From: an uncultured Pseudokineococcus sp.
GTDB lineage: Bacteria; Actinomycetota; Actinomycetes; Actinomycetales; Quadrisphaeraceae
Direction: 5' to 3'
NCBI RefSeq assembly: GCF_947499845.1
Contig: NZ_CANMPM010000002.1
Coordinates: forward strand, 124,001-188,000
Length of the DNA stretch: 64,000 bases
Each line of letters starts with the position of its first letter. Positions within the stretch are counted from its first letter, which is position 1. Below are positions 3,191-21,011 of this stretch, one piece after another. The notes below the pieces were generated by a model. The model had not been told where the DNA came from and made no database searches. It worked only from the letters and a program-made list of their open reading frames with translations. The position numbers were made by a program, and so were the translations under genes.

Positions 3191-3265
<75 letters not shown>

Positions 3266-14112: not shown

Positions 14113-14592
14113 GTGCTCAGCGGCTTCAAGGACTTCATCCTGCGCGGCAACGTCATCGACCTGGCCATCGCGGTCGTCATCGGCGCCGCCTTCACGGCCA
14201 TCGTCACGGCCATCAGCACGGACGTGTTCGGCAACCTCATCGCCGCGATCTTCGACGCCGAGGACATCGGGACGCTGGGGGTGGACATCCCGAGCCGGAC
14301 CGGCGACGGCGCCACCACCATCGTCTTCGGGACGACGATCGCCGCGCTCCTCAACTTCCTCATCGTCGCGGCGGTGCTGTACTTCCTCGTCGTCGTCCCG
14401 ATGAACCGCCTGCTCGCCCTGCGCAAGCAGGGCGCGGAGCCCGACGTCGCCGCTCCGAGCGAGGACATCCTGCTGCTGCAGGAGATCCGCGACCTCCTCG
14501 CCGCCCAGCGGGCCGCGAGCGCTGCCGGTGGGGACGGCGACGCCGCGGACGGCGCGGGCCCGGCCGGTCAGCGGGGCCCCGAGCTCCCCTGA
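14113..14592 (+). CDS. mscL: large-conductance mechanosensitive channel MscL
   Basis: A 159-aa inner-membrane channel that opens under hypo-osmotic tension. It starts LSGFKDFILRGNVIDLAIAV, the conserved N-terminal amphipathic helix plus TM1. After a periplasmic loop, TM2 is IAALLNFLIVAAVLYFLVVV followed by PMNRL. The C-terminal helix carries EDILLLQEIRDLL, and an Ala/Gly-rich extension follows. The GTG is preceded by a strong ribosome-binding site (GAGGAGGGC). Confidence 0.96.
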   Translation: MLSGFKDFILRGNVIDLAIAVVIGAAFTAIVTAISTDVFGNLIAAIFDAEDIGTLGVDIPSRTGDGATTIVFGTTIAALLNFLIVAAVLYFLVVVPMNRLLALRKQGAEPDVAAPSEDILLLQEIRDLLAAQRAASAAGGDGDAADGAGPAGQRGPELP

Positions 14593-14702: not shown

Positions 14703-15023
14703 TCACCAGTGCGGCGGCCGCTCCCGCAGGTAGCGCTCGTCGTCCTCCTCGTCGGCGCGCTCGCCCCAGGCCTCGGGACGGTCCTCGGCCGCCCGGTCGG
14801 GCAGCACGGGCGGCTCGCCCGCGCCGCGCCCCCCACCGGCCGGGCCCCGCGCCCCCCGGGGCCCGCGCGGCGAGGCCGCCTCGCCCGTCGCGGCCTCCCC
14901 GCCCGCCGTCGCGCGCTGGCCCGTCGTCGCGCGCTGGCCCGTCGTCGCGTCCGGGCCCGTCGTCGCGCGGGGCCGCCGCCCGTCGTCGCCCCCGTCCGTC
15001 CGGCCCGAGCCGCCCCGCGTCAC
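14703..15023 (-). CDS. conserved small actinobacterial protein of unknown function
   Basis: A 106-aa acidic/Arg-rich protein whose GTG overlaps the stop of the helicase-like gene (GTGA), so it is translated with it. Only the C-terminus looks conserved: a DDERYLRERPPHW ending, which I recall from small proteins encoded beside similar helicase genes in other actinobacteria. The middle is an ATTGQR-type repeat coded by an 18-nt tandem repeat. No domain is recognised. A role with the helicase-like protein is inferred from coupling only. Confidence 0.65.
   Translation of the reverse strand: MTRGGSGRTDGGDDGRRPRATTGPDATTGQRATTGQRATAGGEAATGEAASPRGPRGARGPAGGGRGAGEPPVLPDRAAEDRPEAWGERADEEDDERYLRERPPHW
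14905..14970. repeat. 18-nt in-frame tandem repeat
   Basis: Between three and four copies of an 18-nt unit (GTCGTCGCGCGCTGGCCC and variants) inside the small gene; each unit adds six residues (ATTGQR-like). Confidence 0.7.
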
Positions 15024-18000
15024 CGGGGCGCTCCCGCTCCGGGGCGCCGCGCCGCCGCGAGGACGTCCGCCACCTCGCGCGCGGGGTCCACGAGGAGGCC
15101 GAGGGAGGCCACGTGCGCCACGGCCCAGCCCTGGCGGCGCAGCGCCGCCGCCTCGGCGACCCGCCGCACGGGGTCCGCGGCCGTCGGGCCGGTCTCCGGC
15201 CCGGGCGGGCGCACGTCCGGCAGGACGGCCGCGCAGCGCCCGTCGCGCAGGCGGACCGACAGGTCGGGGTCCCCCGGCCGCTCCGCGGCGCGCACGTGGG
15301 CCCCGGCCTCCCCCAGGCGCTCCACGAGCGCGGCGACCAGCGGGTCGGCGCCCCCGTCGTCGGCGCCGGTGCCGGCGCCGGTGTCGGCGTCGGCGCCGGT
15401 CGGGGCGGCCAGGCGCGCGTGCGCCCCGAGGGCGCGCGCGGCGTCGTCGCCCGGCGGCAGGAGGTCCTCCGGCGCCACGTCCGGCGGAGCGGCGTCCACG
15501 ACCCCCGAGGGCCCTGCCGGCCCCTCCGCGGCGCCGCCTCCGGCGCCGCTGCCCGGGGCCGTGCCGGGACCGTCCGCCGAGGGGTGAGCGGCGCGGTGCC
15601 GCTCGTCCGCGTCCTCGACCGCGACGAGGAGGGCGCGCAGCGCCCGAGCGCCCGGTGTGCGCAGCCGGTCGGGGGCGAGGTCCTCCGCCGCGAGGCACGT
15701 GACCACGACGAGCCGCCGCCGGGCTCCCGCCACGGCGTCGGCCAGCGCGGCGGCGCCCCCTGCGGCGTCGAGGGGCCCGAAGGCCCCGGGCACCCGCCCG
15801 CGCTCCGTCGGCGCGAACGCCCCGGACAGGACGACGACGTCGCGGACGCAGCCCTGCGCGCGCCCCACGTCGGTGACGACGAGCGGCTCGTCGCTCCGCG
15901 CCGAGCGCGCGACCGCGGCGGCGAGCGCGGCGTCGGCGGCCACGGCCGCCCGCAGGGCGTCGGCGACGCGACGGGCGTGCCCGCGGGTGACGGCGACGAC
16001 GGCGAGCGAGCGCTCGGGGTCCTCCCGCAGGTGGCCGACGGCCGTCTCGACGACGGCGTCCACCTCGACGTCGAGCGAGTGCACGACGCCCTCGGCGGAG
16101 GCCCGGCCGCGGCCGTCCACCCGGCGCAGCACGACCGGCCAGGCCCCGGGCGGCGCGGGCACGGCGTCGTCCCACCCGGTCGCCGGGTCCCCGTCCGGGG
16201 AGGCGCTGCCGGTGGACTCGACGCCCGTGGAGGCGCTGCCCGACGGGGTGCCGCCCGACGCGGCGCCCGGCTCCCCGGTGGCGGGCTCGAGGGCCTCGGC
16301 GCGCACGGCGGCGACGACGGGCCCGAGCTGGCGCGGCAGCCGGTGCGAGCGCCCGAGGGAGCGCTCCTCCAGCAGGCCGGCGGTGGCGGCCAGGAGGCTC
16401 GTCGGCGCCCCCTCCCCCGGGTGCTCGGGAGCCGGCGCGCCGACGACGGCCGACGACGGGGGCGGGCCGGCCGGGTCGCCGACGACGAGCACCTGCGCCC
16501 CGCGCGCCAGGGCGAGCGCCCCCTCGGGCACCCCGGCGGCGTGCGCGTCGAGCAGGACGACGAGGTCGACGGCCCCCTGGGCGGCGGGGCCGAGGACCGC
16601 GGGCAGGGCCAGGAGGCTGGCGGCGTCGACCGCACCCACCGCCCCGGCGGTCGCCAGGAGGTCGGCGGCCTCGCGCCGTCGACGCGCCGCCGTCCCGGCG
16701 ACGAGCTGCTCGCGGGCGGCGGCGGCGCTCGCGGGCCGCAGGTCGTCGAGGACGCCCCGGCGCCCGGCCTCCGCGAGCGCGGAGGCGCGGACGACGAGCT
16801 CGGCCTCGGCGGCGGCGTCGTCCTCGTCGACGCCCCTGCGCCCGTCGGCGCCCCTCGGCCCCCCGTGGTGGTGGGCGGCGGCGCGGTCGCGGAGGTCCTC
16901 GACGAGGCCGCCGAGGCCGAGCTCGCCGAGCCGGACGAGCACGTCGACGCGCGCCGGCAGGTCACCGCGGGCGTCGTCGTCGTCGGCCATGGCCCACAGG
17001 CGCCCGGTGAGGGAGGACAGGTCGGCGTCGCGCAGGCCGGCCCCCGCGCGCGTGCCGCGCAGCACCGGCTCGAGCCGGTCGAGCTCCGCGACGACGTCGG
17101 CGAGCGCCCGCTGCGCCTCGGCGATGCCGTGCGGGACGTGGGGGCGGCCGCCGTCCTCGGCCGCGGCCGACCACGCCCGCCGCTCGGCGTCGGCCCGGCG
17201 CAGCGACGTGCGCAGGTCCGCCGGGCGGGCTCCCGGGCGCACCACCTCGGCCACGACCTTCTGCGCCGTGCGGCGCGTGCGCCAGGTCGCGTCCTGGCCG
17301 AGGGCGCGCACGAGCTCGCCGAGGGGGCGCTCGTAGACGCCCGGCGAGAAGTCCTCGAGGGTGCCCCGGACGTCGACGAGGAGCCGCAGCCGCTGCTCCA
17401 CCTCCGCGGCGGTGGCCGGGCGCCGCAGGCCCGTGCGCTCCCCCAGCGCGTCGAGGTGCTCGGCGAGCCGGGGCAGGCGGGTGCCCGCCAGCTCCTCGGC
17501 CCGGCGGCGGGCGACGCGGGCCTCCTCGCCCGAGCCGAGCGCGGCGCCCGCCCACGGGCTGGAGGCGAGCTCGGGGCGGAAGGCGCCGAGGCGGGCCGCC
17601 TCGCGCGCGTGCCCGACGACGCGCCCGAGGCCCTCGGCCGCCGTCGCGCGCACGCCGTCCGCGTCGAGGCGCACCGCGCTGCGCGGCGGCCGGGGGGCCC
17701 GCGCGAGCCGCACGAGGGCGTGGGCTCCGGCGAGGACGCCCGCGTCGAGGCCGTCGCCGGCCGGGACGTCGAGGGCGCGGGCGCCCGCGCGCAGGCGGGC
17801 GGCGGCCGCGTCGGGGCCCGCCCCCTCCTGCGCGCCGACGTCCCCGGCGTCCCCGGCGTCCCCGGCCGGCTGGGGCGCTCCGGGACGGGCGGCGGGCTCG
17901 CCCGCGAGGTCGCCGAGGCCCGTGGCGGCGAGACGGGCGAGGACGTCGTGCGCCTCGCCCGTCCCCGGGGCGACGACGAGGCAGCGGCGGCCGGCGCCGA

Positions 18001-19108
18001 CGGCGGAGGCGACCGCTTGCGCGGCCAGCTGGGTGGCGCCCGACCCCGGGCCGGCCAGGACGCGCAGGGAGCGACCCGCGGCCAGGGCGTCGTGCGCGGC
18101 GGCCTGGCCCTCGTCCAGGTCGAGGACGCGCCAGCGCGCGACGTCGCCCCAGCCGGGCGCGGCCGGCGGCGGGCCGGCGGGCCGGTCGACGGCGGCCCCC
18201 GCCGTCACCGCGGCGAGCCCGGCGACGAGAGGGCCGACGCGCTCGTCGGGCCGCGCCGCCAGGTGCTCGGCGTCGGCGGCGAGCGGTCCCGCGAGCTCGG
18301 GGTAGACGCCCACGAGGGTCCGCTCCGCGAGCTCCAGGCCGGGGACGTCCGCCAGCTGCTCGCCGAGGGCGCGCAGGGCCCGGCGGTGGGGGTCCCCGCG
18401 GCCGTCCTCGAAGGGGGCGAGGACGGCGCCCGCGTCGAGGCCGTGCCCGCGGCGGGCGAGCGCGTCGACGAGCTCGGGGTTGACCCGCACCTCGGGCCGC
18501 AGGTCGAGCTCCTCGTCGAGGACGCCGGTGCCCCGGGGCTGCAGGACGAGGCGCTGCAGGAGGGCGGGGGCGTGGACCTCCGCCGCCGTCGCGCGACCGG
18601 CGGCGGGAGCCGACCAGCGCACCAGCCCGACGGCGAGCGCGCAGGCGGGGACGCCGTGCTGGTCGGCGACCTCCTGCGCCGACGCGCGCAGGGCGCGCAC
18701 CCGCTCGCGGGCACCCTCGTGGGAGCCCCGCTCGCGGAAGAGGCTGGACAGCCGGGTCGGGCGGCCGGCCCAGAAGGCGGCGAGGCCGGAGGGGTGCGCG
18801 CCGCCGAGGTCGAGCGGGGGCACGAGGACGTCCGCGGCGGTGCGGTCGTCCACGAGGACCCCTCGGCCGCCCGTGCGCGCCAGCGCGCGCGACCACGTGG
18901 CGACGACGTCCGCGACGGGCGCCCGCGGCGTCTCCGGCTCGGGCGGCGCCACGGGCCGGGCCGCGGCGGGCGGTGCCGGCGGCGCGGGCGCGGCGCCGGG
19001 GCGCTCGTCGGCGGGCTCCTCGGGCCGGGGGGCCGGCCCGCGGCGCAGCAGCGCGCGCAGGCGAGAGCCGTGCCGCGGGGACCGGGAGGCGCGGGTCGGG
19101 TCGGGCAC
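15020..19108 (-). CDS. superfamily-I helicase-like protein with degenerate ATPase motifs and C-terminal nuclease-like domain
   Basis: A 1362-aa protein with the layout of large actinobacterial DUF4011/AAA_12 helicases. After a Pro-rich N-terminus come a DUF4011-like region, the first RecA-like core at about residue 350 and a coiled linker. The second core carries TDVGRAQGCVRDVVVLSGAF and GRVPGAFGPL...GARRRLVVV, and a C-terminal segment RRQGWAVAHVASLG resembles a restriction-endonuclease fold. The Walker A loop reads GPGSGATQ (no Lys) and motif II reads LLDAHAAG in place of DE. ATP hydrolysis is therefore doubtful. The start is ATG. A small coupled gene follows. Confidence 0.75.
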   Translation of the reverse strand: MPDPTRASRSPRHGSRLRALLRRGPAPRPEEPADERPGAAPAPPAPPAAARPVAPPEPETPRAPVADVVATWSRALARTGGRGVLVDDRTAADVLVPPLDLGGAHPSGLAAFWAGRPTRLSSLFRERGSHEGARERVRALRASAQEVADQHGVPACALAVGLVRWSAPAAGRATAAEVHAPALLQRLVLQPRGTGVLDEELDLRPEVRVNPELVDALARRGHGLDAGAVLAPFEDGRGDPHRRALRALGEQLADVPGLELAERTLVGVYPELAGPLAADAEHLAARPDERVGPLVAGLAAVTAGAAVDRPAGPPPAAPGWGDVARWRVLDLDEGQAAAHDALAAGRSLRVLAGPGSGATQLAAQAVASAVGAGRRCLVVAPGTGEAHDVLARLAATGLGDLAGEPAARPGAPQPAGDAGDAGDVGAQEGAGPDAAAARLRAGARALDVPAGDGLDAGVLAGAHALVRLARAPRPPRSAVRLDADGVRATAAEGLGRVVGHAREAARLGAFRPELASSPWAGAALGSGEEARVARRRAEELAGTRLPRLAEHLDALGERTGLRRPATAAEVEQRLRLLVDVRGTLEDFSPGVYERPLGELVRALGQDATWRTRRTAQKVVAEVVRPGARPADLRTSLRRADAERRAWSAAAEDGGRPHVPHGIAEAQRALADVVAELDRLEPVLRGTRAGAGLRDADLSSLTGRLWAMADDDDARGDLPARVDVLVRLGELGLGGLVEDLRDRAAAHHHGGPRGADGRRGVDEDDAAAEAELVVRASALAEAGRRGVLDDLRPASAAAAREQLVAGTAARRRREAADLLATAGAVGAVDAASLLALPAVLGPAAQGAVDLVVLLDAHAAGVPEGALALARGAQVLVVGDPAGPPPSSAVVGAPAPEHPGEGAPTSLLAATAGLLEERSLGRSHRLPRQLGPVVAAVRAEALEPATGEPGAASGGTPSGSASTGVESTGSASPDGDPATGWDDAVPAPPGAWPVVLRRVDGRGRASAEGVVHSLDVEVDAVVETAVGHLREDPERSLAVVAVTRGHARRVADALRAAVAADAALAAAVARSARSDEPLVVTDVGRAQGCVRDVVVLSGAFAPTERGRVPGAFGPLDAAGGAAALADAVAGARRRLVVVTCLAAEDLAPDRLRTPGARALRALLVAVEDADERHRAAHPSADGPGTAPGSGAGGGAAEGPAGPSGVVDAAPPDVAPEDLLPPGDDAARALGAHARLAAPTGADADTGAGTGADDGGADPLVAALVERLGEAGAHVRAAERPGDPDLSVRLRDGRCAAVLPDVRPPGPETGPTAADPVRRVAEAAALRRQGWAVAHVASLGLLVDPAREVADVLAAARRPGAGAPR

Positions 19109-19170
19109 GCGCGCACGCTAGCCGAGCAGGGGCGCCCTCCCGTCGCCCCGGGCCGGGGCGGGGGCGGACG

Positions 19171-19209
19171 CACGAGCGCCCCGCGTCGGTCGGACGCGGG
19201 GCGCTCGTG
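19171..19209 (-). terminator. 17-bp perfect hairpin downstream of the Balon-like gene
   Basis: A perfect 17-bp stem with a 5-nt loop (GGTCG) lies between the leftward Balon-like gene (ends 19430) and the helicase gene. It is most likely the terminator of the former. Confidence 0.65.
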
Positions 19210-19244
19210 GGCTCCCCCCGGGCGGGAGGAGCAGGTGGTTGGAG

Positions 19245-19285
19245 GCAGTGCCCACCGCGCAGGGGGGGCCAGCGGTGGGCACTGC
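19245..19285. terminator. second hairpin, 14-bp perfect stem
   Basis: GCAGTGCCCACCGC and its exact complement are separated by 13 nt. The element stands 35 nt from the 17-bp hairpin in the same intergenic stretch (19109-19429), which holds no credible gene. It may be a second terminator or part of a small RNA. Confidence 0.5.
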
Positions 19286-19429: not shown

Positions 19430-20686
19430 TCAGACCCCGACGTCGCGCAGGCGCTCGCCGTCGCCCGTCATCGTCGGGGCGCCGCCGCCCGGCGTGCCCT
19501 GGTCCGACCAGCGCAGGAGGGCGCCGACGCCGTCGCCGAGCTCGAGCGGGTCGCTCTCGTCCTGGCGGGTGCCGGGCACGAGCACCAGGCCGGCCGCCCC
19601 GCCGACCGCCGCGCGCACGAGCGCGGCGTCGGCCCGGACCTCGACCGGCTCGGCCACGCCCATCTCGAGCAGGTCCTCGCGGCTCTGCGCCAGCTGCAGC
19701 GCCTCCGGGCCCACCCAGAGGGTCCACGTCGAGCTCGGGTCGTCGCGCAGGAGGACGTCCTGCACCTGGCCGCGCTGCAGCATCTGCACGACGGCGTCGA
19801 TCCCGTCGGCGCCGTCCGCGTCCTTGCCGCGGGCCTGGGAGTAGCTGTCGACGACCTCCTGCAGGCGCCGCTCCTGGACCCGCGCCAGCACCTCGCCGAG
19901 CGTGCGGGCGAAGTCCTCCGAGCGGATGCCGTCGGCGCGACCGCCGCCCTGGACGACCTCGGCGATGCCCGCGGCCGCGCCGCCGAGGCGCTCGCGGACG
20001 AGCGAGACGGCGTTGTCGTCGCCGGTGAGCACGACGACCTCGGGCTTGTACCGGCTCACGAGGTCGTCGACGTCCGAGGCGACCGCCGCGGCGTCGCGCT
20101 GCCAGGAGTCCTCGACGCGCCGCTCGTGCGTGTACTCGCCCGTGCCGCCGACCGGCACCTTGTGGAGCACGTCGTCGTCGGAGCCGGAGGTCTCGCGGGC
20201 CCGGACGTCGTCGACCGTCGAGCCGACGACGGCGTCGCCGCCCTCGGGACGGGCCGCCGTGACGCCGGAGCCCACGGCCACGGTGAGGTCGGCCCCGTCG
20301 TGGTCGGCGGCGACGAGCAGGTAGCGCGTCGAGCCGGCCGCCGCGCGCACCGCGGGCAGCACGTGCGCGACGGGCCCCCACGACGCCTCGTCCTGCGCCG
20401 GCGCGGCCGGCAGCACGAGGTCGAGCACGACGCCGCCGGCGCCCGCCACGACCGTGCGGCCCGAGCCGTCGCCCGCGTCGTGGCGCCCGCTGGGCGCCGT
20501 GGCGCGCTCGGCGAGCAGGTCGAGGACGTCCTCGGGCGCGCCCTGCTCCTCCAGGCGGCGGCGCAGCTCGCGCCACCGCAGGTCCACCTCGTGCTCGCCC
20601 GAGGCGTCGGTGCGCGAGACGTCGAGCGTCACGCTGGCGAGGGGCCCCTCGGCCTCGAACGCCGGTGCCAGCCACTGCAGGTCCAT
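19430..20686 (-). CDS. baeRF/Rv2629-type eRF1-like protein (Balon-like ribosome factor)
   Basis: A 418-aa protein of the bacterial archaeo-eukaryotic release-factor-like family (baeRF2), to which mycobacterial Rv2629 and the hibernation factor Balon belong. Seen: the N-terminal LxPAFEAEGPLASVTLDVSR opening, HKVPVGGTGEYTHERRVEDS in the middle, RYKPEVVVLTGDDNAVSLVRE in the central domain, and a C-terminal domain with VVQMLQRGQVQDVLL and AALVRAAVGGAAGLVLVPG. Balon binds the ribosomal A site during stress together with EF-Tu; that role is transferred by family, not proven. The gene is monocistronic and ends at two strong hairpins. Confidence 0.82.
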   Translation of the reverse strand: MDLQWLAPAFEAEGPLASVTLDVSRTDASGEHEVDLRWRELRRRLEEQGAPEDVLDLLAERATAPSGRHDAGDGSGRTVVAGAGGVVLDLVLPAAPAQDEASWGPVAHVLPAVRAAAGSTRYLLVAADHDGADLTVAVGSGVTAARPEGGDAVVGSTVDDVRARETSGSDDDVLHKVPVGGTGEYTHERRVEDSWQRDAAAVASDVDDLVSRYKPEVVVLTGDDNAVSLVRERLGGAAAGIAEVVQGGGRADGIRSEDFARTLGEVLARVQERRLQEVVDSYSQARGKDADGADGIDAVVQMLQRGQVQDVLLRDDPSSTWTLWVGPEALQLAQSREDLLEMGVAEPVEVRADAALVRAAVGGAAGLVLVPGTRQDESDPLELGDGVGALLRWSDQGTPGGGAPTMTGDGERLRDVGV

Positions 20687-20893: not shown

Positions 20894-20966
20894 GCCCCCG
20901 TAGCTCAGGGGATAGAGCAACGGTTTCCTAAACCGTGTGTCGGAGGTTCGAATCCTCTCGGGGGCA
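20894..20966 (+). tRNA. tRNA-Arg(CCT)
   Basis: A 73-nt cloverleaf: acceptor GCCCCCG/CGGGGGC with discriminator A, D arm GCTCAGGGGATAGAGC, anticodon arm ACGGT-TTCCTAA-ACCGT giving anticodon CCT for AGG codons, T arm GAGGTTCGAATCCTC. CCA is not encoded. No integrase or repeated tRNA end was seen nearby, so it is not marked as an attachment site. Confidence 0.97.
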
Positions 20967-21011
20967 CCCTCCTCCGGCGCCGGGCGACCGCCTCGGCGCC
21001 CGCCCGCCGCC

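Follow-up and report, generated by a model that had tools for sequence, protein, structure and literature searches.

The anti-phage helicase-nucleases ProA, Hhe and PDC-S37 share one domain order, in which a DUF4011-like N-terminus is followed by an SF1 helicase and a Vsr/MTES_1575-type nuclease. RecC, a subunit of RecBCD, carries helicase-like and nuclease-like folds without catalysis and uses them for binding and signalling. Deinococcus radiodurans PriA and yeast Utp25 are SF2-type proteins, and we know of no nuclease remnant or partner of the present kind in these pseudohelicases. Both are described as helicases that have lost helicase function (PMC4504706, PMC9539457). The MTES_1575 domain is described as a Vsr-type REase, and a multidomain protein that joins it to an SF-I helicase and a wHTH (DUF3320) is listed there with HEPN and transglutaminase domains, as active (PMC3710099). 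In Pseudomonas aeruginosa, a core DUF4011 gene is reported to flank the defence hotspot cDHS1 (PMC10250203).

The locus analysed here lies in a window of 64,000 nucleotides (the whole stretch of DNA under study) from an uncultured Pseudokineococcus sp. It encodes a large protein whose family combines a loss of catalytic residues with retained predicted folds, low dN/dS, a conserved locus and a conserved small neighbour. By ancestry it is close to the anti-phage helicase-nucleases of the DUF4011/ProA/Hhe kind, with which it shares the domain order and, in many homologues, a DUF3320-winged-helix-like C-terminal tail, as judged by eye. In contrast to these proteins, it scores far under the curated cut-offs, has lost the Walker A, Walker B and nuclease residues, and belongs to a family with an AHPSGLA...AGRPTRLS block of its own, a fixed syntenic locus and a small partner. 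The MTES_1575 multidomain protein has the same architecture, but the window protein is smaller and catalytically degenerate. The likeness to RecC is an analogy of logic only, and the window protein belongs to the Upf1-like subfamily. The P. aeruginosa DUF4011 gene is likewise core chromosomal and adjoins a conserved small hypothetical gene. Literature searches returned no publication that was recognised as dealing with this family.

A large gene with degenerate catalytic sites

The third-position GC of the large open reading frame (ORF) is 0.92-1.00 in each 100-codon block, in a window of 77% GC, which identifies it as a genuine gene (Table 1). Its product has no significant match in Pfam, where DUF4011 (PF13195) reaches 11.5 bits (E 0.31), below the gathering score of 22.2, and none in a PDB sequence search. 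The NCBIfam models for ProA (NF058533; 2e-32, 111.7 bits) and Hhe (NF042953; 6e-21, 73.7 bits) do match, at scores that fall short of the curated whole-protein cut-offs of 1500 and 2000 bits, and PADLOC PDC-S37 matches at 6e-27. Both NCBIfam models match 37/37 members of the family alignment used for structure prediction, nine of which also match DUF4011 at E<=0.01.

Table 1. Positions in the window of the large gene, its regions, its partner and the adjacent genes
Feature	Coordinates	Strand	Remarks
mscL	14113..14592	+	Convergent conserved neighbour (context, outside the system); Pfam MscL 2.9e-24
Partner ORF, 106 aa	14703..15023	-	Start and large-gene stop overlap (GTGA)
Conserved C-terminal tail of partner, RERPPHW	14706..14726	-	
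Pseudo-helicase/pseudo-nuclease gene	15020..19108	-	1362 aa, GTG start; ORF, codon-position GC, ProA/Hhe profiles, predicted fold
Degenerate Vsr/MTES_1575-type nuclease fold (predicted), aa 1254-1362	15023..15349	-	Catalytic residues lost
Second RecA-like domain, aa 990-1166	15611..16141	-	Best ProA/Hhe profile match; motif VI degenerate
Motif III remnant VVGDPAGPP, aa 875-883	16460..16486	-	GD kept, Gln lost
Degenerate motif II LLDAHAAG, aa 852-859	16532..16555	-	Asp-Glu to Leu853-Asp854
Degenerate Walker A GPGSGATQ, aa 353-360	18029..18052	-	Lys to Ala358
Family signature block DL..AHPSGLA...AGRPTRLS..FRER, aa 100-127	18728..18811	-	
N-terminal DUF4011-like region, aa 66-270	18299..18913	-	Weak Pfam DUF4011; aligned to DUF4011 proteins
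Rv2629-family ribosome hibernation factor / baeRF family 2 gene	19430-20686	-	Directly upstream of the large gene

Homologues were collected from a tblastn match to a syntenic gene in Actinomyces oris, annotated 'DNA helicase'. A two-sequence alignment of this protein and the window protein, used as the scan query, yielded at least 45 further loci in Actinomyces, Brevibacterium, Cellulomonas, Cellulosimicrobium, Oerskovia, Georgenia, Timonella, Rarobacter and others; an earlier genome scan from one sequence had given no matches, its peptide patterns having fallen in poorly conserved stretches. The scan required peptides such as DL[GT][GA]AHPSG, so that the sample is biased and the taxonomic limits of the family may lie beyond it, as may a syntenic orthologue with an intact ATPase; ATPase and nuclease motifs played no part in selection. 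Of the 46 other loci, 43 contain an ORF of at least 1000 aa. In L040, L045 and L046 the ORF is shorter and runs off a contig end, and these three were excluded from the resulting 44-row alignment, which includes the window. The signature block is among the best conserved family segments and is without counterpart in the intact comparison set, five DUF4011/DUF3320-type relatives from plasmids that all carry GPPGTGKS and FDEAS. A quick tree, which leaves out eight near-duplicates or fragments, places these five on one side of a branch with a support of 100; the window sits on a long branch, which makes its precise placement unsure.

The sequence-only reading had described a helicase-like protein without the Walker A lysine or the Asp-Glu pair of motif II, and both degenerate motifs were found as described, starting at aa 353 and aa 852. 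Specifically, GPGSGATQ of the window aligns on GPPGTGKSQ of the five intact relatives, and VVLLDAHA on their VVIFDEAS. The alignment of orthologues reveals that the loss is family-wide: the Walker A lysine and the motif II glutamate are each found in 0/44 rows, window included, as opposed to 5/5 intact relatives. The lysine position is instead occupied by V (29), A (10), T (3), I (1) or Q (1), and the glutamate position by A (29), D (9), G (4) or S (2). The motif II aspartate is retained in 34/44 rows, and both Asp and Glu are gone in the window. In none of the 44 rows does a lysine lie 8 columns or less from the Walker A position. The earlier reading had named intact Walker motifs at another place in the protein as grounds for abandoning its view; these are ruled out for the window protein, since [AG]x4GK[ST] occurs nowhere in it. 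Outside the helicase site it appears, by chance, in 2/44 homologues.

The further claim that other helicase blocks are kept held for the GD of motif III, whose Asp is present in 44/44 rows, but not for its Gln (0/44) or for motif VI, which reads LADAVAGARRRL in the window as against LNVAITRA[KR] or near it in intact relatives. One P-loop glycine persists in 44/44. In some members the site resembles a P-loop apart from one substitution, with PPGTGATQ in Brevibacterium and PPGTGQTQ in an Arthrobacter MAG. The Arthrobacter sequence also has an almost complete motif VI, which in the window has degenerated. At the level of sequence, these data strongly support the proposed lack of ATPase activity, both for the helicase motor of the window protein and for its whole aligned family. 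As the family retains the motif III GD and parts of motifs V/VI, it may nevertheless still bind nucleotide or phosphate to some extent.

The Upf1-like SF1 helicase fold itself is predicted to be retained. Residues 66-1201 were modelled with AlphaFold2 from an alignment of 37 family members (the 44 rows without L001, L004, L010, L017, L024, L027 and L043, of which L004 is a fragment), with a mean pLDDT of 78.9 and a pTM of 0.54. This core model contains two RecA-like domains of Upf1-like fold, with a strand-loop-helix at the P-loop position, and its best structural matches are UPF1 (2xzp; Z 21.4, rmsd 6.0, 484 aligned), IGHMBP2 (Z 21.2) and Dna2 (Z 20.4). The catalytic residues were assigned from the sequence alignment rather than from superposed structures.

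The interpretation of the protein as an ATPase-dead scaffold or DNA-binding protein stood in part, the scaffold or DNA-binding role being putative. It had missed the ancestry near the DUF4011/ProA/Hhe proteins and a second dead domain, of predicted Vsr/MTES_1575-type nuclease fold. Pfam MTES_1575 (PF18741, gathering score 38.2) is found in 31/33 C-termini at E<=0.01, in an alignment of the window and 32 of the 41 loci with C-termini read (L004 ends before this region). A. oris reaches 46.7 bits, and the window C-terminus has no match to this model. Intact relatives read IDL...IECDG, whose conserved Asp and Glu we take to be the catalytic residues of a PD-(D/E)XK fold; most family members read RIPL...AVLTDD, with Asp replaced by Pro and Glu by Leu, and the window protein, with AVLPD, has neither residue. 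A model of the last 115 residues of the window protein (pLDDT 79.6) resembles the endonuclease-like 3hrl at Z 9.1 and Vsr 1cw0 at Z 8.1, scores (Z 8-9) only slightly higher than unrelated models may give, and its Foldseek matches are weak (best E 0.0094); the structural support for a PD-(D/E)XK fold is modest. The window C-terminus is thus predicted, from model and alignment, to be a degenerate Vsr/MTES_1575-type nuclease fold that has lost its catalytic residues.

The family is not uniformly nuclease-dead, because four Brevibacterium members (L002, L022, L028 and L030), and only these among 42 C-termini read (41 loci and the window), keep a plausible Asp/Glu pair. Their Asp was read from the C-termini, as the column is misaligned in the 44-row alignment. 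In two further members (L016 and L017) the Asp is retained while the Glu has become Asp, and L035 has the Asp alone. The four Brevibacterium proteins, with a dead ATPase and an apparently intact nuclease pair, are possibly ATP-independent nucleases.

Selection, locus and a small partner with a PPHW tail

Nei-Gojobori dN/dS was estimated over 13 close pairs, with the caveat that the estimator is simple and the genes are GC-rich. Whole-gene values range from 0.09 to 0.40 and are about 0.1-0.25 in most pairs, the highest coming from two Georgenia pairs (0.40 and 0.36). The first RecA-like region gives 0 to 0.47, the second 0 to 0.40, and the C-terminal part up to 0.44, in one Cellulomonas pair. 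The dead domains are thus mostly as constrained as the remaining gene, and these low ratios make decay unlikely.

The gene order of the window (GNAT, Glp, cyclo-ligase, penicillin amidase, zinc-ribbon protein, SAF, mscL, partner, large gene) largely matches that of A. oris, where mscL, an SAF gene and 5-formyltetrahydrofolate cyclo-ligase are neighbours. Convergent mscL follows the pair in 37/43 loci; five of the six loci without it have fewer than 600 bases downstream, L005 being the exception. Among 72,556 plasmid records, a match spanning 80% or more of the A. oris protein was found once, in A. oris's own 415-kb Actinomyces replicon, with the mscL/SAF/cyclo-ligase neighbourhood. At E 1e-3, none of 50,697 phage records had a homologue of the large protein. 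These counts fit a vertical, core-genome inheritance rather than a mobile defence island. A phage origin was rejected, as neither the protein nor the PPHW tail of its partner matched phage records.

The Rv2629-family gene was likewise excluded from the system: in none of the 43 loci was a homologue of it found near the large gene, and in the window two long, strong inverted repeats stand between both genes. These repeats, at 19161-19219 (27-nt arms, 85% complementary) and 19245-19285 (perfect 14-nt arms, GCAGTGCCCACCGC), are candidate terminators without a T-run or candidate regulatory sites. The window also carries a tRNA-Arg (CCT) gene at 20894-20968 (+) and a tRNA-Ala (CGC) gene at 3191-3265 (-).

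The coupling to a 106-aa partner, which had been proposed from the sequence, is borne out by a conserved companion ORF: in 38/38 loci with at least 600 bases downstream, the large gene is followed by a small ORF with a PPH[W/Y/H] motif. In 26 of them this ORF ends in or near PPHW; in the remaining 12 it contains PPHW, PPHY or PPHH, which is not always terminal. The A. oris homologue adjoins a 104-aa ORF, the partner in L037 is interrupted by unread bases, and that in L023 is about 0.6 kb away. ORFs ending in PPH[WY] (at most 6 residues before the stop) number 33 in 829,338 bases from 53 sequences: 31 stand in the partner position, one is the window's partner, and the last is a short ORF that stands alone in Nonomuraea gerenzanensis (L052:8980-9102, +) and has the tail GWG...RPPHW. 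No large homologue was found within about 9 kb of the latter, which suggests that the tail is a wider actinobacterial module and that the partner may not be dedicated to the large protein. PLSDB lists an 11.85-Mb Nonomuraea replicon, NZ_LT559118.1, as a plasmid; it is probably a mislabelled chromosome-size record. As the PPHW tail marks the locus yet is also used elsewhere, an adaptor role for the partner is favoured.

A probable non-catalytic scaffold and its alternatives

The available data are compatible with a model, which we regard as probable, in which a chromosomally fixed pseudo-helicase/pseudo-nuclease acts, together with a short adaptor, as a scaffold that binds nucleic acid independently of ATP, by analogy RecC-like in its logic. 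An ancestor with the DUF4011 / Upf1-like SF1 helicase / Vsr-type (MTES_1575) nuclease architecture of ProA and Hhe would have given rise to an actinobacterial chromosomal lineage that presumably lost its ATPase residues first and, in most members, its nuclease residues later. The large protein may then have become a scaffold or sensor that would bind nucleic acid without ATP hydrolysis. Its short, probably disordered partner would be translated together with it, and the [RL]L.[RD][VR]PPHW tail could either dock on the large protein or recruit a third, widely conserved actinobacterial factor. A bolder version, which we put forward as tentative, traces the protein to an early actinobacterial domestication of an anti-phage-type helicase-nuclease, which lost both activities, and has the co-translated PPHW partner link the resulting ATP-independent, core chromosomal nucleic-acid scaffold to an actinobacterium-wide receptor. 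Such a receptor would also read the PPHW tail on other tiny proteins, and we know of no counterpart to a RecC-like hub of that kind.

Several other explanations share part of this evidence. The dead protein might be a regulatory subunit that pairs with an ATPase-competent helicase or nuclease from another locus of the genome and supplies specificity, as RecC does for RecB/RecD; RecC is the textbook example of such a subunit, and both dead domains keep their predicted fold under purifying selection, but no helicase or nuclease was found among the neighbour genes tested for, and this pairing appears unlikely. It is rather improbable that the protein, as a domesticated descendant of ProA/Hhe-like defence proteins, is still an anti-phage factor in the form of a non-catalytic sensor, decoy or guard. 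The family-wide ProA and Hhe matches and that of the window protein to PDC-S37 speak for such a factor, but the scores stay far under the cut-offs, the expected ATPase and nuclease residues are gone, and the site is syntenic and housekeeping (mscL, SAF, cyclo-ligase, Glp) rather than a variable defence island.

A non-canonical ATPase whose substitute residues would bind and hydrolyse nucleotide is very unlikely: the invariant P-loop glycine and motif III Asp would suit it, but the substitutions at the lysine site vary by lineage, no compensating lysine lies nearby, and the motif II glutamate is lost in every row. Finally, absent catalytic motifs and some low-complexity inserts could be taken as signs of a decaying pseudogene or an annotation artefact. 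Long ORFs in all but the three loci at contig ends and low dN/dS led to the rejection of this explanation, to which hardly any credence is left, and the conserved partner and locus argue against it as well.

If the scaffold model is true, a defence-type helicase-nuclease lineage has turned into a conserved non-enzymatic machine part, and the homologues display stages of this loss, from Brevibacterium, where the nuclease pair is kept, and Arthrobacter, where motif VI is kept, to the fully degenerate window protein. As the annotated A. oris relative belongs to this degenerate family, a function predicted from the name 'DNA helicase' is probably wrong. PPHW, in turn, would present an unstudied C-terminal peptide motif in actinobacteria, with a putative receptor.
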